This document shows, piece after piece, positions 18,545 through 41,459 of a DNA stretch of 42,559 bases. Position numbers and translations under genes: made by a program. The notes beneath the pieces are model-generated. The model did no database searches and was not told the DNA's origin. It saw only the letters and a list, made by a program, of their open reading frames with translations. Origin of the DNA: Bacteroidia bacterium (GTDB lineage: Bacteria > Bacteroidota > Bacteroidia > UBA4408); assembly GCA_023262495.1 (NCBI GenBank), contig JALRAS010000012.1, forward strand, positions 1 through 42,559, read 5' to 3'. Numbering within the stretch: position 1 is the first letter of the stretch; every line of letters begins with the position of its first letter.

Positions 18545-19408
18545 TCAAAATGTTTTTACCTCCACCACCTCAATATCATATATTAAGGTAGTATAAGGCT
18601 GCACCATGGCAATTTTTCTTCTTCCGAAAGCCAATTCACTGGGTATAATTAACGTTGCTTTTGTACCTGCAACCATTTTTAAGAGTCCCTCTTGCATGCC
18701 TTTGGTTATTTTTCCTTGCGACATATCAATCTCAATGGGCTTGTCTTGCTTATCAATCAAGGCACCATCCAAGGTTGTACAAGTGTATGTAATTTTCACT
18801 TTAGATGCTTGGGTAATTGGATTTCCCGTGCCTGCTTCTCTTTCAATGTAATAAAGCCCCGAAGTATCTGGCAATACCTGAATTTGATTGAGCGAAATAA
18901 ACTCCTTTATCCTTTGTGGTTCGGCTACTCTTCGTGCCTCGTTGTCGCGTTCAATCTCCTCGGGTGTGCGCGTCTCTATTGACTCTTTGGGTTTAATGCC
19001 TAGCAGCTTAATCCTAAAATTCATCTTTGTGCCTTTCTTGATGTAACGAGGCATAGCAGTTTTGAAAGTTTTGGCATAGATAGAATCGGCACTTACTCTG
19101 AAAATAGCTGAATCTCCCACTGCCATCATCAACATCCCTTCTTCAAGACTGCCTTTGAAAGTAGGCGCCAATAGTTCAAAAACATTATCGGGTCGGCTCA
19201 CCCTCGAGTCGAAAATAACTGAATCCTTGTGATTGGTGTAAACAAGAATGGTTTTAATTAAATCTCCGGCAGCAGGTTTTATCTTCCCTCCATTGCTGAA
19301 AATTTTATACTCAAGTCCTGTAGCAGTTTTCTCGAAGGCAACCTTTTTTTGACCAAAAGCTGCACTGCTTAAAAATAGGGTTAAGAGGAGCAGACTTTTA
19401 GCTGTCAT
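18545..19408 (-). CDS. tandem FKBP-fold protein, degenerate active site
   Basis: A 287-residue exported protein with signal peptide MTAKSLLLLTLFLSSAAFGQ. It has two FKBP-like domains: residues ~25-140 (LEEGMLMMAVGDSAIFRVSAD) and ~180-287 (KVKITYTCTTLDGALID ... ELAFGRRK ... TLIYDIEVVEV). In the second domain, key prolyl-isomerase positions are altered: the F-D after the first strand is I-D, the pocket Trp is Met (ITKGMQEGL), and the Tyr of AYG is Phe (AFG). A chaperone role without strong isomerase activity is therefore plausible. It lies 1 base downstream of its paralogue and is surely cotranscribed. An ordinary periplasmic isomerase cannot be excluded. Confidence 0.85.
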   Translation of the reverse strand: MTAKSLLLLTLFLSSAAFGQKKVAFEKTATGLEYKIFSNGGKIKPAAGDLIKTILVYTNHKDSVIFDSRVSRPDNVFELLAPTFKGSLEEGMLMMAVGDSAIFRVSADSIYAKTFKTAMPRYIKKGTKMNFRIKLLGIKPKESIETRTPEEIERDNEARRVAEPQRIKEFISLNQIQVLPDTSGLYYIEREAGTGNPITQASKVKITYTCTTLDGALIDKQDKPIEIDMSQGKITKGMQEGLLKMVAGTKATLIIPSELAFGRRKIAMVQPYTTLIYDIEVVEVKTF

Positions 19409-19409
19409 G

Positions 19410-20345
19410 TTACTTTACATCAAGTAGTTCAACTTCGAATATAAGTGTGCTAAATGGCTTAATTGGCCCTTGATTCATTTCGCCATAGGCAAGATTAGAG
19501 GGGATAATAAATGTTGCCTTACCGCCTGAATTCATCAGTAGCAATGCCTCATCCCAACCCGGAATAACTTCTCCATTACCAACTGTAAATTCAAAAGCAC
19601 TGTACGTTCTTCCCTCTTGATACATGTTATTTTCCTTTGCTATTTTTTCATTGTTAGTATCAAATAAAGTACCATCAATCAATCTACCCACATAATTCAT
19701 TTTAACCTTCTTACCTTTTTCAGCTTTAGGTCCTTTACCTTTCATTTTTTCAATATAAATTAAGCCACTTGCTGTTGGAGCAGTTGTAATTTTGTTATCG
19801 GCAAGATATTTATCGAGATTTACTTTTTCTTCTGCCTTAAACTTTTGTGCCTCAGCTTCTGCCACCGCCATTTTTTCGGCACGCATTTTCTCTATTTCGG
19901 CTTTTGTTTTGATGTCTTCTACCTTCACAAAAAAGGTGAGCATACTTCCTTTTGCTATTCCCTTGGGCAACTCTTGCATTCCAAAAGTTTTGGCGAATAG
20001 AGAGTCAGCGCTTACCATAAAACTAGCGCTATCACCCGGTGAAAGCATCGCAAATCCTTCTTCTAAACCACCTTTAAAGGTTGGCTTGGTAAGCGGTACA
20101 GGAACTTTTCTGCCTTGAGCAATTGAATTAAATATCACACTATCTTTTTCATTTTTGTATACCATGTCCATCATGATTACATCGCCTTCTGCTGCTTTCT
20201 TACCTTTTTCATCATGTTTGAAAAACTTGTAATACAATCCGTCTTTGGTTTGCTCATAACCCGGATACTTAGAATTGTTGCATGCTAAAAAAGTGAAACA
20301 AGAGATACTGAATAAACTTGTTAGTGTGATAAAGTTGAATTTCAT
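19410..20345 (-). CDS. tandem FKBP-type peptidyl-prolyl isomerase lipoprotein (start revised)
   Basis: A 311-residue lipoprotein. The ATG at 20345 is chosen because it opens a lipoprotein signal (MKFNFITLTSL...FTFLAC, then NNSK); the track's 37-residue extension to 20456 lacks any such signal. The N-terminal FKBP-like domain (~30-145) resembles that of the downstream paralogue (LEEGFAMLSPGDSASFMVSAD). A Lys/Glu/Ala-rich linker follows, then a C-terminal FKBP domain that keeps the canonical pocket: YVGRLIDGTLFDT, GEVIPGWDEALL and LAYGE. It should assist folding at the envelope; related FKBP lipoproteins (GldI-type) are linked to gliding in some Bacteroidota, but this is not shown here. A near-match -7 box (TACTTTCGT) lies about 25 bases upstream. 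First gene of the FKBP pair. Confidence 0.88.
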   Translation of the reverse strand: MKFNFITLTSLFSISCFTFLACNNSKYPGYEQTKDGLYYKFFKHDEKGKKAAEGDVIMMDMVYKNEKDSVIFNSIAQGRKVPVPLTKPTFKGGLEEGFAMLSPGDSASFMVSADSLFAKTFGMQELPKGIAKGSMLTFFVKVEDIKTKAEIEKMRAEKMAVAEAEAQKFKAEEKVNLDKYLADNKITTAPTASGLIYIEKMKGKGPKAEKGKKVKMNYVGRLIDGTLFDTNNEKIAKENNMYQEGRTYSAFEFTVGNGEVIPGWDEALLLMNSGGKATFIIPSNLAYGEMNQGPIKPFSTLIFEVELLDVK

Positions 20346-20489
20346 TGATTGACGTTTTTTTAAATTGAGGTACGAAAGTAATGATAAATTTAATTGACAC
20401 TTAATTTTAAATTGAGCCAACATTAAATTAACAAATATTGGGCACTTAAAAAGCATACTACTGTCCTATGATTTTTAATAACACGCTCA

Positions 20490-21452: not shown

Positions 21453-21461
21453 TAGATTTGT
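21453..21461 (+). promoter_or_regulatory. -7 promoter element (TAGATTTGT) for the 40-residue-repeat gene
   Basis: A perfect TAnnTTTGY match. The track's GTG start at 21460 overlaps it, so that start is impossible from this promoter; the ATG at 21484 is 22 bases downstream. Confidence 0.55.
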
Positions 21462-21483: not shown

Positions 21484-21960
21484 ATGAAAACAATCATTTT
21501 TTCTATCTCCGTATTATTATCAACTTCTATTTTCAGTACCTCTCAGGTAACAGCCAACAATCCTCAGTTGGGCAACTACACCGTGGAGCAAAGCAAAACC
21601 GATGTGAACCTTAATTTAGTGCTTGTAGAATTAACGGAAGGCATCATTCCTAAGGGATTTGACAAAGCATGGAAAACCATAGGGCCACAATGGGCAGACA
21701 AGGTAAAATCTGCTGCTGAAGTTTCTTTGTTGAGTGCTTCACTGCTAGAATTGGCTGATAATATCAAAGACAAATACTACAAACCAACTTGGGAAAAATC
21801 GAAAGAGAAATGGGTAAAACAAGTGAAGGATGCACGCAGTAGCTTAGCATTGGCAGGCCTCTTGAAATCGTTATATAACAACCTCAATCCCGAAGTTTTT
21901 ACCGCAGATTGGACAGGCAAAAGTTCAATTTGGCTTGAAACGCTCAGCAAAATTGAATAA
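21484..21960 (+). CDS. secreted protein of three 40-residue Trp-pair repeats, unknown function
   Basis: A 158-residue exported protein; signal peptide MKTIIFSISVLLSTSIFSTS, cleaved around residues 20-24. The mature part is three repeats of exactly 40 residues. Each has a helix (LVLVELTEGI / ASLLELADNI / AGLLKSLYNN), then a pair of tryptophans seven apart: W63/W70, W103/W110, W143/W150 (for example PTWEKSKEKW). It is strongly helical and Lys-rich, with no cysteine, lipobox or T9SS domain, so probably periplasmic. I do not recognise the family. It lies 40 bases upstream of a secreted subtilase on the same strand, so cotranscription is likely; a chaperone or inhibitor role is conceivable but unsupported. 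The start was moved from the GTG at 21460 because a promoter lies there. Confidence 0.8.
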   Translation: MKTIIFSISVLLSTSIFSTSQVTANNPQLGNYTVEQSKTDVNLNLVLVELTEGIIPKGFDKAWKTIGPQWADKVKSAAEVSLLSASLLELADNIKDKYYKPTWEKSKEKWVKQVKDARSSLALAGLLKSLYNNLNPEVFTADWTGKSSIWLETLSKIE

Positions 21961-22000: not shown

Positions 22001-24820
22001 ATGATGACATCAAGAATTTCAACCCCATTTTTTTCGCTAATATTTTTAGTGCTTGCAAACCTGAGCACCGCTTCGTTTGCATCAACAAAGTTCAAGGTTG
22101 ATTTAAATGCACCCCATGAGCAAGGGGTTGTAATTTTAAAGGTTAAAAAGCAGTATGCCAATCAATGCGAGGCAACCCGCATCAACTCAACAAAAATTAT
22201 TAATTGCTTGATGTCGATTGATGTGGTTGGTTTATCCAAAAAGTTTCCCCTACACCAGTCACCTGCCACAGAGCGCGACAAGTATGGTCGTGAGCTGATA
22301 GACCTGTCTCTAATATACGAGTTAAAGGTTAATCCATCAAATAAACTGGATAAAGTGATTCAGCTACTTCTTGCAACAGGTGAGCTCGACTATGCCGAAC
22401 CGCATTATACGCAACAATTATTATATTCACCCAACGACCCTTCTACCTTACTGCAATATTATCTCAATAAAATATCGGCTTATCAAGCATGGGACATCAG
22501 CCAAAGCGATACTAACATTGTTATTGGTGTAACAGATACCGGAACAGACCTCTTTCACGAAGACCTTGTGGGTAACGTAAAGTATAACTACCTCGACCCT
22601 ATTGATGGGATTGATAATGACACCGATGGATACATTGACAATTACTATGGTTGGGATTTAGGTGAGAACGATAATACACCACAATGTAATGCCAATTTCC
22701 ATGGCTTGCACAGTACAGGTATTTCAAGTGCTATGGTTGATAACAATACCGGTATTGCAGGGGTGGGCTTTAAGGCCAAATACTTACCAATCAAAATTTC
22801 TGATGCAGCAGGTACATTAAATACATCTTATGAAGGAATTGTATATGCCGTTGATCATGGCTGTCAAATCGTGAATTGTTCTTGGGGAGGAATTGGTGCC
22901 AGCCAATTTGGACAAGATATAGTTAACTATGCCGCCATCAATATGAATGCCCTAGTAATTGCCTCTGCCGGAAACAATGGCGATGATGTACTTTTTTACC
23001 CTGCCTCCTACAACAATGTGCTCAACGTGGCTGCTACCGATCAAGCTGATCACAAAAAACTGAATTCAACCTATGGAATAACCATTGATGTGTGCGCCCC
23101 CGGTGAAGATATTTTGTCAACTTGGACCAACAACACCTATGTGGCTTCAGGAGGTACCTCCACCGCTGCTCCTGTAGTTGCCGGTGCTGCAGCCATTGTA
23201 AAATCACACTTTCCCAACTATTCGGGCATACAAATTGGAGAGCAGTTGCGGGCCACAGCCGATAACATTGATACTGTTGCATTCAACGCTCCTTGGGCCG
23301 GTAAGCTGGGCGCAGGCAGAATAAATTTATTTAAAGCACTCACCGACAGTAACGCAGTATCAGTTGTACTAACCAATAGCAGCGTTACCGATAACAACGA
23401 CAATGCATTTGTTGTAGGCGATACACTCAACATCATAGGCGAATTTACCAACTATCTTGCTCAAACAAATGCTGTATCGGTGAAAGCATCATGTGCCTCT
23501 GCTTTTATCCAAATGATCGACAGCACTATCACGTTGGGTAACATGAATACTCTGCAAACGGTAAACAATAACGCATCACCTTTTAAAGCAACTATATTAA
23601 GCGGTGCACCTATCAATGCTCCTGTTGAATTTAAATTAAAAGTAACAGACAGTGCCGGACATCAATTTACCTACTATGTTGCCATAGTGATTAATGTAGA
23701 CTTTATCAATATCAACATTAATGAGGTAGCTACCACGGTAACCAGCAAAGGAAATATTGGTTACAATAACAGTTCAACACAAGGATTAGGTTTTGTATAC
23801 AACAATAGCAACTTGCTTTATGAATCCGGCTTGCTCATTGGTGCAGGCCCAACACGTGTATCCGACAGGGTGAGAGGGAATCCGGGCACCCAAGATACCG
23901 ACTTCTTGTCCGTTTCAAATGTTTCGCGAATTATTCCGGGCGTAGTTTCTGAATTTGATGTCACAGGAAGTTTTAATGACAACGGTGCAGCTGCCAATGC
24001 TATTCCCGTAAAGGTGCTTCAAAACTCCTATGCATGGAGTACACCCGGCAACACGAAATATGTCATCTTCAAATACAAAGTAATCAATACCGGTGCAGTA
24101 CTGCTCGACAATCTGTTTATTGGAGTATTTGCCGATTGGGATATTATGAATAGCAACTTAAATAAAGCAGCATTTGATGCACCCAACAAGATGGGTTTCT
24201 GCTACAGCACGCAGTCGAACGGACTTTATGCAGGCATCAAACTGCTCAGCAATACAGCCCCTGTGGTTCACTATGCCATGGATAACATTGGTGGTGGTGG
24301 TGGTGGAATTGATCCGGTGGGTGGCATTAACACTGCTGAGAAATTTACCGGGATTTCAACCAATAGAACAAATGCAGGAGGAGCCGGTAGCGGCAACGAT
24401 GTTACTCATTTTGTAAGCAGTGGGCCATTTGTAGTGAACCCCAACGATACGGTTGAGGTAGCTTTTGCTTACATTGCAGGTGATAGTTTAGCCGACCTAC
24501 AGAGCAGTGCTGCAGCAGCACAAGTAAAATATGACAATAGCTTAGTAGTTGTTAAAAATAATCACACCCAATATCCGGCTTTCATTGTTTATCCTAATCC
24601 GGTTAAAGATATGCTCTACATCAGCTCCCCAAATACTGCAGCAAGCAATTGTGTGGTCAATGTGCTGAATATCGAAGGCAAAATAATCATGCAGCACAAT
24701 ATCATTAATCAGCAAGCAACTTTCGGCATTCCGATGTCAGGTATAGAAAACGGTATTTACTTTGCACAAATCATTACTGAGTCAGATGTAAAAACAGTAA
24801 AATTTATAGTGAACAGATAA
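22001..24820 (+). CDS. subtilisin-like (S8) secreted serine protease with T9SS type A sorting domain
   Basis: A 939-residue secreted protease. Signal peptide ~1-28 (ends ASFAST region), propeptide-like region to ~155, then the S8 domain with the full catalytic set: Asp179 (VTDTGTDLFHEDL), His234 (NFHGLHSTG), oxyanion Asn325 (SAGNNGD) and Ser387 (GGTSTAAPVVAG). Beta-sandwich domains follow (~450-850), including a GGGGGG stretch encoded by a GGT run. The end is a T9SS type A sorting domain: YPNPVKDMLYISS ... GIYFAQIITES ... KFIVNR. It should be exported through Sec and T9SS and processed at the cell surface, acting as an extracellular peptidase. Likely cotranscribed with the repeat protein 40 bases upstream. 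Confidence 0.95.
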   Translation: MMTSRISTPFFSLIFLVLANLSTASFASTKFKVDLNAPHEQGVVILKVKKQYANQCEATRINSTKIINCLMSIDVVGLSKKFPLHQSPATERDKYGRELIDLSLIYELKVNPSNKLDKVIQLLLATGELDYAEPHYTQQLLYSPNDPSTLLQYYLNKISAYQAWDISQSDTNIVIGVTDTGTDLFHEDLVGNVKYNYLDPIDGIDNDTDGYIDNYYGWDLGENDNTPQCNANFHGLHSTGISSAMVDNNTGIAGVGFKAKYLPIKISDAAGTLNTSYEGIVYAVDHGCQIVNCSWGGIGASQFGQDIVNYAAINMNALVIASAGNNGDDVLFYPASYNNVLNVAATDQADHKKLNSTYGITIDVCAPGEDILSTWTNNTYVASGGTSTAAPVVAGAAAIVKSHFPNYSGIQIGEQLRATADNIDTVAFNAPWAGKLGAGRINLFKALTDSNAVSVVLTNSSVTDNNDNAFVVGDTLNIIGEFTNYLAQTNAVSVKASCASAFIQMIDSTITLGNMNTLQTVNNNASPFKATILSGAPINAPVEFKLKVTDSAGHQFTYYVAIVINVDFINININEVATTVTSKGNIGYNNSSTQGLGFVYNNSNLLYESGLLIGAGPTRVSDRVRGNPGTQDTDFLSVSNVSRIIPGVVSEFDVTGSFNDNGAAANAIPVKVLQNSYAWSTPGNTKYVIFKYKVINTGAVLLDNLFIGVFADWDIMNSNLNKAAFDAPNKMGFCYSTQSNGLYAGIKLLSNTAPVVHYAMDNIGGGGGGIDPVGGINTAEKFTGISTNRTNAGGAGSGNDVTHFVSSGPFVVNPNDTVEVAFAYIAGDSLADLQSSAAAAQVKYDNSLVVVKNNHTQYPAFIVYPNPVKDMLYISSPNTAASNCVVNVLNIEGKIIMQHNIINQQATFGIPMSGIENGIYFAQIITESDVKTVKFIVNR

Positions 24821-33121: not shown

Positions 33122-35782
33122 TTATCGAACAAGTACCACCCTACCATTATAGGTTCTACTAATTCCTTTTATATCGATTACTTTCAGCAAATATACATAA
33201 GCGCCTTGAGGAGACTCTACTCCTTCAAACCTTCCATCCCAGACAGCTTCAGGGCCTGTACTAGAAAAAACAATTTCACCCCAACGGTTAAAAATCTGCA
33301 TTACATACTCCTTAATGCCTATGCTTGATGGCTTGAATTTATCATTTAATCCATCGCCATTAGGTGTGAATGCATCAGGAATAAATAGTCTGAACTCGGG
33401 AGAAATGTATACGGTTATGCTGATACTATCTGTACAATCAAATTCATTTTTCACTATTTGAGTCACTCGAAAAAAGCCCGTGTCACTGAAAGTATGTGTA
33501 TAACTGCAATCTTCAACATAGGTACCATCACTAATTCTTAAGGCACAAAAGATACTTTGCTTGGACGTATCGGTAAAAGTAATTATAGGTTCAAAAATAC
33601 TGGCCTCATTGGGAGATGCGATGAACCCTGCCTGAGGATTAGGATATACAGTCACTGCATTGGGATACACAAAAGTTGAAGTATCCACACAACCGGTTGT
33701 GGTAACGATGGTTAGTGTAAGGGTGTAACTACCCGGGATGTTGTATTCATGTGCAGGTTTTTGCACATCTGTGCTGCTATTATCACCTAAATTCCATTGG
33801 TATAGATATGGGGTTGCAGCCACGCTGCTGTCAATCAATTCAACAAATACAGGACTACAACCGGTACCACCAATGATTCCAAAATTTGCCATGGGACTCG
33901 GATACAATCCCACTGAGTCGGTAATAGTTTTTAAGCACCCATATTGACTGACTGATAAGGAAACAGGAAAAACTCCTAATTGATTATAAACTACATCTTG
34001 TGGCGCTTGCAAATTACTTTGATTGAGGGAGGCATTAGGCCCAAAGTTCCAATCAAAAACAGCATCTGTGGTGTAAGCCCCGGTGGCGTTAAAATCAAAA
34101 CTATTCCCCGCAAAACATTGGTCACCTGCTCCTGAAATACTTGGATTGAGTAGCGGGAATACCCAAAATAAAATGGATGCTGTATCACTGCATATACCCT
34201 GATTAGTGGCCACAAGGGTAATATTATAAACCCCGGAATCAGGATAAATGTAAGTTGGCTGAAACAAATTACTGGTATCTGAACTGATACCCGGAACACC
34301 AAAGTCCCAATGCCAATTGGAAGCATTAATAGAGTTATTTCCGAAATCAATTTGATAACCCACGCAGTATTGATTTACCGAGGAAATATCTGCAACCGGT
34401 CGGAGAACAGTAAGTACATTTCCATTGCCGCTGTATGTTTCAGTGCAACCATATTGAGAAATAGTTAAACTAACCGAGTTGCTTCCTAAATTTGAGAAGC
34501 TTATATCCGTGGGGTTTTGCTGAGTGCTTGTTTGAGGGGTTGCATTACTTCCAAAATCCCATAAAAAGGTGGCATCTGATGAAAAGCTGCCCCCCGCAAT
34601 AAAATCAAAACTGTTGTTGTCAAAACATTGCGGAGCAGGTGAAACAATATTTGGATCTAACAACGGATAAACCTCAAAAACAGAATATGCCGTATCGTAG
34701 CAATTGCCGCTTGGGTCATAAGCAACCAACATTACCGTATAAGTTCCTGTGTCGGCATAGGTGTAACTGGTTGAGATTGAGTTTGAGGTATCGGCAAGGG
34801 TAGCTGGGTCACCAAAATTCCAGAAGTAAGTATTCGAATTGACACTGGCTGCCCCACTGAAATTGACCGTGTTTCCATTACAAAAAGTAGTTTGCGCAGG
34901 AATAGAGGCAATAGCAGCATCACAAAATAAAATGTTGAACTGAAAATCTCTTTTATTGGTGCTTAACAACACCCCGTTTCTATATTCGCTCACGCAAACA
35001 CCAACTACATATTGTCCAATATTTGTCGGGGTTCCGTTTAAGTAACCTGTATTGGCATTGATGGCAAAGGCTGGTGAAGCATCAATGGGATAGGCTCCTG
35101 AATATCCACCCAAAAAAGTAACCAACGGAAAAGGAGGTGGATCTGGAGGATTGGGCGCAGGGCTGGCGGTGGAACCACCTGTGTATGGGTCACATAAACT
35201 ATATACAAGCAAATCACCATCAGGATCGGTAGCTACGTGATCAAAATTAAAATTGACATTACTGCATAAAAACAGTGGGGGAAAATTGGTAAACCTTGGG
35301 CTGCTGTTGCAGTTTGCAAGTCCAGGGTCAGGAATATGTGCCAAATAACTTGCACCGGTTGATCCCGGGTCAAATAAATTGGTGATTGTTCCATTACGAC
35401 AACAACGTTGGTAAACAATATTATATCCACCCGCTAAAGGCGGTAAATTAACAACTTCTTCATAAATCGCCTCTTCTACACAAACATTGGTTGGTGGCAC
35501 AAGGCAGGGACTAATTACTACCGGAGGTATAGGATTAGGGCCAGTGTAAAACATCTCGATAGTGTTCACAAGCGTTCCCGATGCATTGTAAATACCAACA
35601 GCTGCAGGGGAATCAAATGGCGCTTGCCCATTAAAACAATCGCGATAGAGCTTTAGCGTAATGCGATAGTTGTTGTTGCCTAAACAAGTATAATAAATTT
35701 CTCCCCCAACTATATGAGTTGCCGAGACCTGCATCCCTATCAGGAGAGAAATCAATAATATAAAGTACTTGCTTACACTCAA
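33122..35782 (-). CDS. PKD-repeat surface protein with T9SS type B sorting domain
   Basis: An 886-residue secreted protein starting with TTG; the next Met lies inside the signal peptide (MSVSKYFILLISLLIGMQVSA). Residues ~22-290 begin ATHIVGGEIYYTCLG and NYRITLKLYRDC, a Cys-rich module common at the N-terminus of Bacteroidota T9SS proteins. Then come about six PKD-type domains (FWNFGDP, FLWDFGS, WHWDFGV, FDWNFGP, YQWNLGD...), four of which form a duplicated A-B-A-B block. The end is a type B sorting domain: FIPDAFTPNGDGLNDKFKP ... MQIFNRWGEIVF ... GAYVYLLKVID. It should be exported by T9SS and held at or released from the cell surface; adhesion is a family-level guess. Last gene of a three-gene leftward operon. 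Confidence 0.9.
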   Translation of the reverse strand: MSVSKYFILLISLLIGMQVSATHIVGGEIYYTCLGNNNYRITLKLYRDCFNGQAPFDSPAAVGIYNASGTLVNTIEMFYTGPNPIPPVVISPCLVPPTNVCVEEAIYEEVVNLPPLAGGYNIVYQRCCRNGTITNLFDPGSTGASYLAHIPDPGLANCNSSPRFTNFPPLFLCSNVNFNFDHVATDPDGDLLVYSLCDPYTGGSTASPAPNPPDPPPFPLVTFLGGYSGAYPIDASPAFAINANTGYLNGTPTNIGQYVVGVCVSEYRNGVLLSTNKRDFQFNILFCDAAIASIPAQTTFCNGNTVNFSGAASVNSNTYFWNFGDPATLADTSNSISTSYTYADTGTYTVMLVAYDPSGNCYDTAYSVFEVYPLLDPNIVSPAPQCFDNNSFDFIAGGSFSSDATFLWDFGSNATPQTSTQQNPTDISFSNLGSNSVSLTISQYGCTETYSGNGNVLTVLRPVADISSVNQYCVGYQIDFGNNSINASNWHWDFGVPGISSDTSNLFQPTYIYPDSGVYNITLVATNQGICSDTASILFWVFPLLNPSISGAGDQCFAGNSFDFNATGAYTTDAVFDWNFGPNASLNQSNLQAPQDVVYNQLGVFPVSLSVSQYGCLKTITDSVGLYPSPMANFGIIGGTGCSPVFVELIDSSVAATPYLYQWNLGDNSSTDVQKPAHEYNIPGSYTLTLTIVTTTGCVDTSTFVYPNAVTVYPNPQAGFIASPNEASIFEPIITFTDTSKQSIFCALRISDGTYVEDCSYTHTFSDTGFFRVTQIVKNEFDCTDSISITVYISPEFRLFIPDAFTPNGDGLNDKFKPSSIGIKEYVMQIFNRWGEIVFSSTGPEAVWDGRFEGVESPQGAYVYLLKVIDIKGISRTYNGRVVLVR

Positions 35783-35830
35783 TTATCTTTTTATTTGCTA
35801 AACAAGTTTTAATAAAAAAGGTTCCGTTTT

Positions 35831-38800
35831 TTATTTCATCAATTGGAAAAACCCTTTCTTAGGATCGATGGTTCCCAATTCCAAAGTGAAATAATAAACA
35901 CCCGGATTTAAATCAGCCGGAGACCAATTATTTTGATAATTATCGGATTGATAAACTCTATTACCCCAGCGATTAAAAACCTCTAACTTAGGCTGAGGGA
36001 AAAGCTCTAAATTTTCGAATACTAAAAACTGATTTTCGCCATCTCCGTTTGGTGTAATGATGTTTGGCACTACCACATCACAATCGGTTCTGAGTGGCAC
36101 GCTAACTTCATCAATGGCAGTATTGCCGCATAAATCTGTAACAGTAACGTTATAAGTTACCGTGTAATCTATAATTGGACTAATAGACACTGCATTATTA
36201 CCTGGAAAGCCAGCAAGGGTAACCAAATCTTGCCATAAATAGCTGTAAGTTCCTGCGCCACCATCAGCAATAACGCTCAAGGTAATTGGATTTCCCGGGC
36301 AAACAGTGGTATCAGGACTTGCAACAGCTGTAAGCTGACTATAAGTTTGCACATTCAAAGTGATGCTATCGGTTACAGGTGATTGCTGACAAGCATCAGC
36401 CATAGTAAGATAGTAAGTAGTAGTTACAGAGGGCTGAGCAATTGCTGCTGAATCTCCTCCCAATGGCACTGCTCCTGCACTCCATGTAAACGTGTATGGT
36501 CTGCGACCATTGCTGAATATTGGCTCAAGCTCGGTTCCAACATTTGGACAAGGCACGGTAATATCTTGCCCCAGGTCGAGTGTGATTGGCAAATAAGGCA
36601 CCACAGTAGCCGTTACGTTAAACTGAACAGGCGCAGTACCGCAAGCATCAGTTACAACAAGCACATAGGTGGTTGATTGGGTAAGGTTATTGGGCGTTGT
36701 ATAGGTACTACCTGTTCCCACCGGTGCACCGTTTAAAGTCCAAGCATAGGTGTAACCCGGGAAACCGCCCGATGCTTGTGCAGTAAGCGTACTCGCCTGA
36801 TTTGGACACAAAATTTGTGTAGCATTTGTAGTTGCTGTAATCGGTGAGGCCGTTGGCACGTTTACCGTGATGGTTTGAGAAACAGGCTGAGAACTGCAAG
36901 AATCTGTTACAGTGTAAGTGTAAGTTGTTGTAGAACCCGGATTTACTGTTATGGTTGCGGCAGTATCACCTGTATTCCACACAACAGTATAGGGAGGATA
37001 ACCACCAATAAATGAAGAATTAATGGTAACTGCATCACCCGGACAAGTAATATTATAGGTGGATTGCGCATTTGTGATAATTGGAGCAAGCGGGAAAATC
37101 ATAATACTATCGGTTACGATTGAACTCAAACCGCAACCCACTTGAAAGTATGATATCACAATTGACTCATCAGGTTCCGCCACGCCATCATTAACTGCAC
37201 TTACAGTAAACTGAATTTGATTTTGACCGGGAAGGAAAACGATGGTGTCATTGAGTGCGTTGTAGTCGGTGCCAGCAATTGCTGTACCGGTTATAGTTAT
37301 TGGAAGAATTAGGGTATCTGCAGCAGCACCCGGACGGGTAAAATCAATAATTGCTGTACCGCAACCTTCAACAATAGAATTGTTGATGCCTGCAGTGATA
37401 ATATCCAGATTGATAGGTGTTCCGATACTTACAAAAACAGAGTCAATTGCTATAAGGCTTCCGCATCCATCATTGATCTGTACGATATAGGTTGTGTCTT
37501 GTACCCCAATTACGTTAATATTCGGGCTAAATCCAACAAACGTACCTCCAAGTATCCAAGCAAAATTGTAGGGGGGGAATCCACCTGAACCTACAGCACT
37601 TAATGTTGCGCTAGATCCTACAGGGATGCATATATCAGCTGCTGAAACCTCTAATGGAAGACCAGGGGGAACATTCACAGTAATGGAGTCAGTTACAGGT
37701 ATTCCGTAACATGTATCAGTTACTGTGTAATAGTATGTTGTTGTGGTGGTTCCTGGGTTAACTTGAATGGCTGTTGCAGTATCTCCAGTATTCCATACTA
37801 CCGTATAGGGTGGGTAACCACCACTGAACTGTGCGGTAAGTATAATTGGGGAGTTTGGACAAATAATTGCTGTATCGGGAGCATTGGCTGTTACAGGCGC
37901 AACGGGTACAATCCAAATACTTGAGGTAATTAAAAAAGACCCACAAATATCTTGTGTAAAAGAGATAATGATCGACTCAGGACCTTCACTGATACCGTCA
38001 TTGTTTGGGATGATAGGCATCACAACAGTATTCTCTCCCGGCAAGAAAGTAATAGTATCGGGCAATGCATTGTAATCTGTTCCCTCAATAGCTGTACCTG
38101 AAACTGTAATTGGGAGCGATAGCGTGTCGGCCACAGAACCTGGTCTGTAAAATGTAAAAGCCGCTTGTGAACATCCCTCAACAATAGTAGTATCTCCGTT
38201 TAGTGTATTGGATACAACTGAAACAGCATTGGAAGTAAAACTCAAGGCCTCTAAAAATACCCCTGAATCGAGTGTGCCATCTGAACCATCTGCAATTGCT
38301 AATCTAATGTGATAGGTTTCACCACAAATAACCGGTGATACCGCTGTAAATACTGTGGTAAATCCATTCAAAGAAACAGAGGCCTGACCTGTATTTGAGA
38401 TGTAATATTGACCATTTAGGTTTGGTTGAACAGAACTAATCGTAATAGGTAAAGGCGGATTGGTTCCGGGAACCACTGCAATATTTTGAGAATTTCCGGA
38501 ATAAGGACCGTTTATCCCGGGACCACTAATAAAGAATCCAAAAACATCGTTAAAGGTACTGTTGATCCATTGAGTATATTCATCTGACCCAAAAACATAA
38601 CGGAATTTTACTGTGTCGGCAGCCGGCACAAAATCGAATTCCAAAATGGCAACATCATTGGTTGAAGAAACACTAAATGTTTGGCCGATTAGCGGAGGGA
38701 CTGAGTTGGCCAAAGTAAGCAAATCAGGATCAGAACCACCTAAAGGGGCTCCCGTGGGAATTCCTACAGGTGAAAGCGCCTGCACATTTCCAGTTGACAT

Positions 38801-39058
38801 CACGATACCACTATCGAGGCCTAAGTTGGAATTTACCCCATTGAAAAAACCAAGTTGAATCGATTCGCCACCTGCGGGAGTAAAAGTAATGTTACTTGCT
38901 GTAACACCCGCGCCCAATAGGATGTTATTTACCAAACTTTGAGCAGCACTTGGGGTATTATAAGCCGTGGTGCTCACTGTAAGTTGTGCCTTAGTAACCG
39001 AAACTGTGGCGAGACACAGTGCTAAAACAAAATTGAAAAGTGATTTATTTATTTTCAT
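35831..39058 (-). CDS. choice-of-anchor-L protein with Calx-beta and Ig-like repeats, T9SS type B
   Basis: A 1075-residue secreted protein. Signal peptide ~1-24 (VSVTKAQ). Residues ~25-280 are the choice-of-anchor-L domain (SLVNNILLGAGVTASNI, NSNLGLDSGIVMSTGNV, KFRYVFGSDEYTQW, FNDVFGFFISGPG). A Calx-beta module (~293-385) and Ig/PKD-like modules follow; the pair is repeated at ~561-735 (ITFLPGENTV vs IVFLPGQNQI; GGYPPYTVVWNTGDTA in both). More Ig-like modules run to ~990, and the end is a type B sorting domain (PNIITPNGDGENQFL ... LEVFNRWGNRVYQS ... PGVYYFTLELG). Likely a cell-surface adhesin or matrix protein. It follows its paralogue by 13 bases. Confidence 0.92.
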   Translation of the reverse strand: MKINKSLFNFVLALCLATVSVTKAQLTVSTTAYNTPSAAQSLVNNILLGAGVTASNITFTPAGGESIQLGFFNGVNSNLGLDSGIVMSTGNVQALSPVGIPTGAPLGGSDPDLLTLANSVPPLIGQTFSVSSTNDVAILEFDFVPAADTVKFRYVFGSDEYTQWINSTFNDVFGFFISGPGINGPYSGNSQNIAVVPGTNPPLPITISSVQPNLNGQYYISNTGQASVSLNGFTTVFTAVSPVICGETYHIRLAIADGSDGTLDSGVFLEALSFTSNAVSVVSNTLNGDTTIVEGCSQAAFTFYRPGSVADTLSLPITVSGTAIEGTDYNALPDTITFLPGENTVVMPIIPNNDGISEGPESIIISFTQDICGSFLITSSIWIVPVAPVTANAPDTAIICPNSPIILTAQFSGGYPPYTVVWNTGDTATAIQVNPGTTTTTYYYTVTDTCYGIPVTDSITVNVPPGLPLEVSAADICIPVGSSATLSAVGSGGFPPYNFAWILGGTFVGFSPNINVIGVQDTTYIVQINDGCGSLIAIDSVFVSIGTPINLDIITAGINNSIVEGCGTAIIDFTRPGAAADTLILPITITGTAIAGTDYNALNDTIVFLPGQNQIQFTVSAVNDGVAEPDESIVISYFQVGCGLSSIVTDSIMIFPLAPIITNAQSTYNITCPGDAVTINSSFIGGYPPYTVVWNTGDTAATITVNPGSTTTYTYTVTDSCSSQPVSQTITVNVPTASPITATTNATQILCPNQASTLTAQASGGFPGYTYAWTLNGAPVGTGSTYTTPNNLTQSTTYVLVVTDACGTAPVQFNVTATVVPYLPITLDLGQDITVPCPNVGTELEPIFSNGRRPYTFTWSAGAVPLGGDSAAIAQPSVTTTYYLTMADACQQSPVTDSITLNVQTYSQLTAVASPDTTVCPGNPITLSVIADGGAGTYSYLWQDLVTLAGFPGNNAVSISPIIDYTVTYNVTVTDLCGNTAIDEVSVPLRTDCDVVVPNIITPNGDGENQFLVFENLELFPQPKLEVFNRWGNRVYQSDNYQNNWSPADLNPGVYYFTLELGTIDPKKGFFQLMK

Positions 39059-39071
39059 ATGTATGTGATGT

Positions 39072-41459
39072 TTATCTTATTAATGTTACTGATCCTATTT
39101 TATCATACAATCTTCCTGACAAACTTTTTGCCGAGATTCTGTATGAATATACACCTTCAGGAACGTTTTTGCCTTCCCAAAAATAATTATTTAAGTTATT
39201 CCCATTGTTGTAAATAATTCCTCCCCAGCGGTCGAAGATAGTAAAATTTAATTCTTTCACCCCTTGCCCTCTTATTTCCCAAATATCATTTAATCCATCA
39301 TTGTTTGGTGTAAAGGCATTTGGAATCAATACGCGTAAATCAGGATTTACCCATACCACATTCACCACTGTGTCTATACAACCACTTGTATCCTTCATCA
39401 CCAATTGCACTTGATAACTTCCACTGTCTTGAAAAATATGTTCAGTGTGCAAATTTAATGAAGTTGTGCCATCTGCAAAATCCCACCAATTATTCATAGG
39501 ATTGATAGAATTATTGGTAAAGATAATATGATAATCGTCCTCCGGATCGGCATGGTAGCTGTAATCAGCAACCGGATAATTAAGTGATACCTGCACATTT
39601 GCAGTAGCCAAGCTGCCGCAACTATCGCTAACAGTAACTATATAAACAGAATTGTTAGTAGGGGAAACCGTAATTTCAGGAGCAGTTGATGTCACATTTG
39701 TCCAGCTGTACTCATAATTAGCAACACCTCCAAATACCTGAACACTTGCTGTAGCTGATTCTCCCAAGCATATTTTTATTTCCTCCGGTAAAAATGCAGT
39801 GAGCGGATTAACCTCTATCAAATTAATTCGTACTGTATCATAACCATGTAAAATGTTACAAGCATCGGTAACCTCAATCACATACCACTGATCTTCAGGA
39901 GTAATAAAAGTTGCTGTGCTACCCGGTGTGAAAGGATTTTGCCATGTAAAATTATAGGGAGGCGTTCCTCCTGTGGCTGAGGATGTAAAAGTTACAGGTT
40001 GATTGGGACAAACAATATCTTGATCTGAGGAGGCAGTTACAATAATTGGGGCTACAACCGGAACGTTTACGACAACCGTATCATAATCAAAAACTTGCTG
40101 ACAGGTATCTTGCACCATTACCACATAAGAAGTGGTTACTAAAGGATTTACTGTAATGCTTCGTGTACTTCCTAAACCATTTTGCCAGGTGTAAAAGTAA
40201 CCGGGAATTCCACCAATGGCGGAAGCATGTAACACTGCAGGATCACCGGCACAATTCAGGGTAGTATCATTACCGGCATTGGCTGTAATGGCAGGAACAT
40301 CAGCAATATACATATTGATGCTAGAAATTAATGTAGAGCAGGCACCGCCAATAGTAGTGATGGTAATAGTATCTAAACCTTCTGCGAGGTTGTCTTGATA
40401 GGCATTAATATTAATAAATGCCGACTGTTGCCCGGGCATGTATACCAAGCTATCGGCAAAATTAGTGTAGTCACCATTATTGGGAGTACCACTAATAATA
40501 AAGTGAACGGTATCACCCAGCGTAACATCGCCTGGTCTCATCATTTCAATACTTGCAACCCCACATCCTTCATAAAGTATCGAATCTGTTCCTCCGATAC
40601 TAACAGAGCCGGTTAGTTGCACCCCTTGGCTGCTGAAGCTGTTCGCCTCCAAAAACACCTTTGAATCAAGAGCGCTATCAGATCCATCGGCAATCGCAAT
40701 TCTAATATGATAAGTAAGTCCGCAAGTTACGGGTGACATTGCTGTTAGCACCGTGGTAAATCCATTTAATCCCACTGTAGTATTGCCCGGATTATCGATA
40801 TAATATTGTCCGTTTAAGGCAGGTTGAACCGAACTGATGGTAATTGGCAGTGGGGGATTGGAATTGGGCACCACGGCAATGTTTTGAGAATTTCCCGCGT
40901 ATGGTCCGTTGATGCCTGGACCACTGATGAAGAATCCAAAAACATCGTTAAAGCTTGTGTTGATGAATAATTGATACTCATTAGAACCAAACACATAACG
41001 AAATTTAACGGTGTCCGATGAAGGAACAAAATCGAACTCTAATACTGACACATCATAAACACCATTTACGCTAAAAACTTGATTAATCAGCGGAGGAACA
41101 GAGTTGGCTACGTTAAGAAGGTCGGGATAAATGATTGCGTTAAAGTTACCAACCCCTCCTATAAAACTATTGGGCATGGCATCAAGTACATTGCCGCTGC
41201 TCAATACAATTCCGCTATCTAAACCTAGATTAGAATTACTTCCATTAAAATATCCTAATTGAAGAGAAGAATTTGCTGCCGGAGTAAAAACAATGTTGCT
41301 TGCGGTAACACCTGTTCCTAGTAATACATTGTTTACTAAACTTGTGGCCGGATCAGGGGTGACATAATTGGTTGTGTTTACAACCAATTGAGCTTTCAAA
41401 TTAAATTGAAAAAGCAGCGATAGCGCAACCGAAGCAATAAATTTGAAACGATTTTTCAT
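39072..41459 (-). CDS. choice-of-anchor-L protein, T9SS type B (paralogue of the downstream gene)
   Basis: A 795-residue secreted protein. Signal peptide ~1-23 (LFQFNLKAQ). Its first ~280 residues are a close paralogue of the next gene's anchor-L domain, with whole stretches identical (for example NDVFGFFISGPGINGPY and YHIRIAIADGSDS vs YHIRLAIADGSDG). Then a degenerate Calx-beta-like module (LVYMPGQQSAFININAYQDNLAEG), four Ig/PKD-like modules (GGIPGYFYTWQNG, GGTPPYNFTWQN, GGVANYEYSWTN, then a PKD WWDFADGTTSLNLHTEHIFQDSG) and a type B sorting domain (LIPNAFTPNNDGLNDIWEI ... FTIFDRWGGIIYN). First gene of the operon. A weak -7 box lies ~66 bases upstream. Confidence 0.92.
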   Translation of the reverse strand: MKNRFKFIASVALSLLFQFNLKAQLVVNTTNYVTPDPATSLVNNVLLGTGVTASNIVFTPAANSSLQLGYFNGSNSNLGLDSGIVLSSGNVLDAMPNSFIGGVGNFNAIIYPDLLNVANSVPPLINQVFSVNGVYDVSVLEFDFVPSSDTVKFRYVFGSNEYQLFINTSFNDVFGFFISGPGINGPYAGNSQNIAVVPNSNPPLPITISSVQPALNGQYYIDNPGNTTVGLNGFTTVLTAMSPVTCGLTYHIRIAIADGSDSALDSKVFLEANSFSSQGVQLTGSVSIGGTDSILYEGCGVASIEMMRPGDVTLGDTVHFIISGTPNNGDYTNFADSLVYMPGQQSAFININAYQDNLAEGLDTITITTIGGACSTLISSINMYIADVPAITANAGNDTTLNCAGDPAVLHASAIGGIPGYFYTWQNGLGSTRSITVNPLVTTSYVVMVQDTCQQVFDYDTVVVNVPVVAPIIVTASSDQDIVCPNQPVTFTSSATGGTPPYNFTWQNPFTPGSTATFITPEDQWYVIEVTDACNILHGYDTVRINLIEVNPLTAFLPEEIKICLGESATASVQVFGGVANYEYSWTNVTSTAPEITVSPTNNSVYIVTVSDSCGSLATANVQVSLNYPVADYSYHADPEDDYHIIFTNNSINPMNNWWDFADGTTSLNLHTEHIFQDSGSYQVQLVMKDTSGCIDTVVNVVWVNPDLRVLIPNAFTPNNDGLNDIWEIRGQGVKELNFTIFDRWGGIIYNNGNNLNNYFWEGKNVPEGVYSYRISAKSLSGRLYDKIGSVTLIR

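Follow-up and report, generated by a model that had tools for sequence, protein, structure and literature searches.

A small secreted protein encoded immediately ahead of an exported protease raises the question of what kind of protein it is, and of whether the two genes belong together for a functional reason. The case considered here lies in what we call the window, the whole 42,559-nucleotide stretch of a Bacteroidia contig (JALRAS010000012.1) that was analysed. An earlier note had placed the small gene 40 bases upstream of a T9SS subtilase on the same strand, and this is borne out: the subtilase begins 40 bases after the small gene ends, and both the S8 and the Por_Secre_tail domains were found in it. 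The features are as follows.

21453..21460, plus strand: Bacteroidetes-type promoter-like box TAnnTTTG, TAGATTTG, from a motif scan; a consensus match only, 31 bp before the ATG
21484..21960, plus strand: gene for the three-repeat secreted protein, ATG start, 158 aa, stop included; orthologues and distant members found
21484..21558, plus strand: predicted signal peptide, residues 1-25, read from the sequence
21610..21729, plus strand: repeat unit 1, residues 43-82, W63/W70; unit profile E = 9.8e-13; helices 43-52 and 63-75
21730..21849, plus strand: repeat unit 2, residues 83-122, W103/W110; unit profile E = 3.3e-13; helices 80-93 and 102-116
21850..21957, plus strand: repeat unit 3, residues 123-158, W143/W150; unit profile E = 2.7e-13; helices 120-132 and 143-155
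22001..24820, plus strand: S8 subtilase with a T9SS type A C-terminal signal, likely operon partner; Pfam S8 E = 6.7e-37, Por_Secre_tail E = 1.1e-13

The small gene reads as an open frame of 477 bp (158 codons), whose product comprises a signal peptide, a short linker and three units occupying residues 43-158. The mature chain probably begins near residue 26, judging by a site between VTA and NN read by eye, and so contains little beyond the three repeats, as had been supposed. It has no cysteine at all, and hence no lipobox Cys. In the mature part the units (LNLVLVELTEGIIPKGFDKAWKTIGPQWADKVKSAAEVSL, LSASLLELADNIKDKYYKPTWEKSKEKWVKQVKDARSSLA and LAGLLKSLYNNLNPEVFTADWTGKSSIWLETLSKIE) carry tryptophans at exactly 63 and 70, 103 and 110, and 143 and 150, the pairs and 40-residue period described originally. 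Comparing the protein with itself at an offset of 40 gives a score of +67; the best offsets of shuffled sequences average -30 (sd 11), and none of 2000 shuffles reached +67; the exact threefold periodicity of paired tryptophans was likewise absent from 200,000 random placements of six Trp. The earlier description of three exact 40-residue repeats holds for the period alone, however, because only 11/40, 7/36 and 6/36 residues are identical between units (17-28%). A basic, conserved stretch starts in unit 2 and runs from residue 100 to 128, with 21 of its 29 residues invariant within the genus; it is far more conserved than the remaining residues in the genus only, as would be expected of a lineage-specific interface.

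The earlier note knew of no family with this signature, and no significant match to one emerged from Pfam, NCBIfam, PHROGs, or the sequences and folds of the PDB. When all 15 members eventually collected were scanned against Pfam, the best match was to BsoBI (E = 0.0074, far below the curated cut-off), and known repeat or domain families were rejected, this weak match reaching 2 of 15 members only. A search with the single sequence matched the genus alone (4/4 genomes, and 0/96 other relatives), but a profile of the four genus sequences retrieved clear members from four other families of the class, with E values of 1e-13 to 2e-18, and further profile searches brought the distant members, all from other families of the class, to 11. 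Weak profile matches in G373, G231, G232, G266, G247, G194 and L040/G896 were left out as chance, a broken frame or a single stretch. The family is sporadic, with no match in 381 of 395 genomes by a profile search in which the limited number of candidates scored in each genome restricts sensitivity. A phage origin was rejected, in that 101 viral-contig pattern matches included none encoding a relative, as was a plasmid origin, with no plasmid match.

All 15 aligned members fit a signal peptide followed by three copies of a consensus unit, L..LL..L...IKP..F...W......W...L, at a spacing of about 40 residues. Trp63 is nearly invariant; the remaining tryptophans may be Phe or lost, and one lineage has lost the pair from its second unit. 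By an ungapped offset test the periodicity is significant in the genus and in L023, L024 and L046 (0/2000 shuffles), modest in L042, L043, L045 and L047, and undetectable in L022, L025, L041 and L044, where unit lengths vary. A unit-only profile applied to 295 genomes matched seven, each with exactly three units, all in one protein. An extensible solenoid array is thus unsupported among the limited number of candidates scored, with three units in every matched genome, though longer arrays may exist. We conclude that this is a coherent family with no model in the searched databases and no recognisable PDB fold.

An AlphaFold model of the small protein, built from the 15-sequence alignment, has six helices, with a core pLDDT of 91-98; residues 43-158 exceed 90 and those before 43 are of poor confidence. 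The Leu-rich helix envisaged ahead of each Trp helix is present three times in the model (43-52 then 63-75, 80-93 then 102-116, 120-132 then 143-155), with three short bridge-turn-bridge elements at the IxPxxF motifs. The model of a distant member (L042) repeats the same pattern, bridge elements included. Searching the PDB for the folds of the window protein and L042 produced no match (best E of 2.3 and 1.6 respectively), and a viral library yielded noise only. The fixed number of three units points to a single closed domain more than to a rod that could be lengthened. These models bear directly on the idea that the small protein is a substrate, or activated product, of the neighbouring subtilase. 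Co-localisation of the genes is all that speaks for it; the predicted fold is compact and of high confidence, it leaves no exposed prodomain-like linker beyond residues 26-42, and distant members without a protease keep the same predicted fold, so we regard this as very improbable.

In the subtilase the catalytic motifs are intact (D179, H234, N325, S387), thermitase is a PDB homologue (E = 1e-45), and about 140 residues ahead of the S8 domain form an N-terminal extension that could be a propeptide. The small gene and an orthologous S8-T9SS subtilase are paired in all four genus genomes searched, at gaps of 40, 39, 27 and 32 bp. In one of these (G002) no gene in 16.5 kb other than the pair matches the window, so that the two genes have stayed together while their surroundings changed. 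In 4/4 genus genomes a TAnnTTTG box precedes the small gene by 28-42 bp, and in 3/4 a motif scan found no such box in the gap between the small gene and the protease; this placement fits a single transcript, on which we infer that both genes would be carried.

The subtilase family is common in the class, occurring in 65 of 100 genomes at E <= 1e-60, yet among the 16 best copies outside the genus none has such a small gene upstream. Comparison of the four partnered subtilases with 24 unpartnered ones, same-genome paralogues included, identified nine otherwise conserved positions that differ. The changes include V238S and C259A (against 24/24 unpartnered copies), M388T (against 23/24) and S384G (against 88%), and those at 238, 384 and 388 lie within 4 residues of His234 or Ser387, with a post hoc P of 0.017 drawn from one clade. 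These active-site changes in partnered copies hint at a link with the small protein. Across residues 238, 259, 384 and 388, partnered copies read GGTSTAAP at the catalytic Ser and HGLHS at the catalytic His, where all or nearly all of the 24 unpartnered relatives read SGTSMA.P and HG.HV respectively.

Beyond the genus the association with subtilases disappears. No S8 protease adjoins any of the 11 distant members, and S8 homologues at E <= 1e-20 are absent from four near-complete genomes that carry the small gene. Together with the 16 unpartnered subtilases, this leads us to reject the idea that an S8 subtilase is the obligatory partner throughout the family: the link proposed in the earlier note stands in the four genus genomes searched, is specific to the genus, and fails elsewhere. 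That note had also held that homologues showing neither periodicity nor a link to subtilases would count against it; the distant homologues do lack the S8 link, but periodicity is clear in the genus, L023, L024 and L046.

What the distant members adjoin instead is varied. In G169 the small gene is flanked directly, in divergent orientation, by a gene for an M12B reprolysin-like metalloprotease (motif HEMGHLMGSRH) that ends in a T9SS tail, and in G798 the gene immediately upstream on the same strand encodes a secreted Met-zincin (HEIGHTLGLYH) in which Pfam finds no T9SS tail; both have the HExxHxxGxxH motif intact. Orientation also varies, the small gene being divergent from the protease in G169 and downstream of it in G798. 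Upstream in G225 the neighbouring gene encodes an Ig-like secreted protein of 1227 aa, whose match to Por_Secre_tail is below threshold and in which no protease domain was detected. Counting the genus subtilase, the small gene adjoins three unrelated secreted proteases. Over 15 loci and 193 ORFs, six ORFs bear one or other of two protease signatures, and each is an immediate neighbour; when every lineage contributes a single locus (11 loci), all three such ORFs fall among the 22 adjacent of 115, for a P of 0.006 that is post hoc, the signatures having been picked after the neighbours were seen. A wider link to secreted proteases, beyond subtilases, survives, and the earlier reading was right in spirit and too narrow in naming subtilases as the partner.

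The protein might be a general helical binder of the periplasm or outer envelope, taking a ligand, lipid or envelope factor and having nothing to do with proteases, with subtilase adjacency a genus-level accident of gene order. The sporadic family would suit this, occurring mostly as single genes among varied neighbours (LolA-like and ABC permease, OMP barrel, AraC, EamA, OmpA, META/DUF937), as would the four genomes that lack a subtilase homologue and a basic pI that is found family-wide with no tie to protease neighbours. An accident would not readily explain why G002 keeps the pair despite changed flanks, why three unrelated secreted proteases are immediate neighbours, or why conservation of residues 100-128 is genus-specific, and we consider it somewhat unlikely.

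We tentatively favour a different reading, which we rate a little short of probable: that the small protein acts in the periplasm, most likely as the inhibitor or guardian of exported proteases encoded beside it, comparable to a potempin in its action but different in kind. On this view three helical hairpins would make up a soluble protein that binds its partner in the periplasm. Within the genus it would be co-transcribed with the T9SS-exported subtilase, made just before it, and bind it, most likely either holding it inactive in the periplasm until export or protecting the cell against molecules that escape; in other lineages of the class this scaffold would serve other exported proteins, metalloproteases included. 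Sec-type signals can be read on both members of the pair, and T9SS cargo crosses the periplasm, so this is where the two would meet. Against this reading, eight or nine of the 11 distant members have no adjacent protease, four genomes have the small gene and no S8 homologue, the possible propeptide of about 140 residues means that the subtilase needs no separate inhibitor, and related subtilases are exported without the small gene. A more specific version, in which a hitherto undescribed periplasmic inhibitor family with a new, closed three-hairpin fold can be re-aimed by lineage at serine or metalloproteases, the active site of the genus subtilase having co-evolved with it, we think distinctly doubtful.

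The small protein could also be a dedicated export or folding chaperone, binding T9SS cargo in the periplasm, keeping it export-ready and staying behind, with the active site uninhibited. T9SS-tailed neighbours in three lineages (the S8 subtilase, the M12B-type protease and, with its sub-threshold tail, the 1227-aa Ig-like protein) speak for this, as do the two secreted FKBP-type foldases encoded next to the pair in 3/4 genus genomes. Against it stand the Met-zincin of G798, for which Pfam gives no T9SS tail, and closely related T9SS subtilases that manage without the small protein; we consider a chaperone improbable.

An inhibitor or guardian has precedents. In Bacteroidetes, T9SS protease genes are known that have an ORF of 360-550 bp for a small secreted protein directly ahead of them (PMC4404884), and such small proteins, the potempins, are reported to be specific inhibitors of the co-expressed protease (PMC7296668). 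The potempins of Tannerella forsythia and their KLIKK proteases are alike in having the gene for an exported protein, comparable in length to the 477 bp found here, directly before a T9SS protease, serine or metallo (PMC4404884, PMC7296668), and it is this likeness that leads us to prefer an inhibitor or guardian to an envelope role, a cargo chaperone or a substrate. Position directly upstream of a T9SS-tailed protease on the same strand, as in potempins, is true here in the genus only. Potempins are described as lipoproteins and specific inhibitors, whereas our protein is a Cys-free, lipobox-less helical chain of three repeats. Potempins are beta-barrel proteins. Among PDB sequences and folds nothing matched the small protein. 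We do not file it as a potempin, the lipobox being absent and its inhibitor role being one that we infer.

C10 proteases with Bti/Spi-type inhibitors in Bacteroides and Streptococcus are similar in that a small inhibitor-like gene is co-transcribed with a secreted protease, and BtiZ, which is inhibitor-like, is predicted to be periplasmic with a signal peptidase I site; in the sections describing them, the target is papain-like, the inhibitor gene lies downstream of btpA, and helical Trp repeats are not mentioned (PMC3462683). In SpBcA of Bergeyella cardium an N-terminal propeptide keeps an exported T9SS S8 peptidase latent and helps its folding (PMC11982257). Such a propeptide is part of the protease chain, whereas the small protein here is separate; the subtilase has its own pre-S8 region of about 140 residues, and the small protein would therefore act in addition.

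To our knowledge, the means by which Bacteroidetes guard against damage by T9SS-exported proteases in the periplasm are known in few cases only. A helical scaffold beside S8, M12B-type and Met-zincin proteases would, if our reading is right, be a new type of inhibitor or guardian; even with no protease role the proteins are a coherent family lacking a database model and a recognisable PDB fold. Being small, Cys-free and confidently predicted, the protein should be easy to express and test.

Some gene contexts recur between lineages. In two different families, a secreted LolA-like protein without a Pfam match (33% identical) and an ABC permease (47%) are encoded near the small gene, in L022 (5653-8926) and L024 (1148-3539); G379 and G169 have this context in common. 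MacA/MacB-like ABC modules, with permeases 38% identical, are found near it in L008 (10547-13564) and L044 (2859-5867), and are common to G003 and G798, which belong to two different families. Contexts common to distant lineages are compatible with vertical inheritance accompanied by numerous losses. In one family a gene for a META-domain lipoprotein and a DUF937-like gene flank the small gene in a conserved arrangement (L046 5649-7237, L047 5197-6716). Within the window, two tandem secreted FKBP-type peptidyl-prolyl isomerases are encoded beside the pair on the minus strand (18545-20456); FKBP-type isomerases are also near the pair in G001, and in G003 they are transcribed divergently right next to the small gene. 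Elsewhere on the minus strand of the window (33122-41459), consecutive genes encode three large T9SS adhesin-like proteins of the CHU_C type, in which PKD, Ig, Calx-beta and SprB-like repeats occur.
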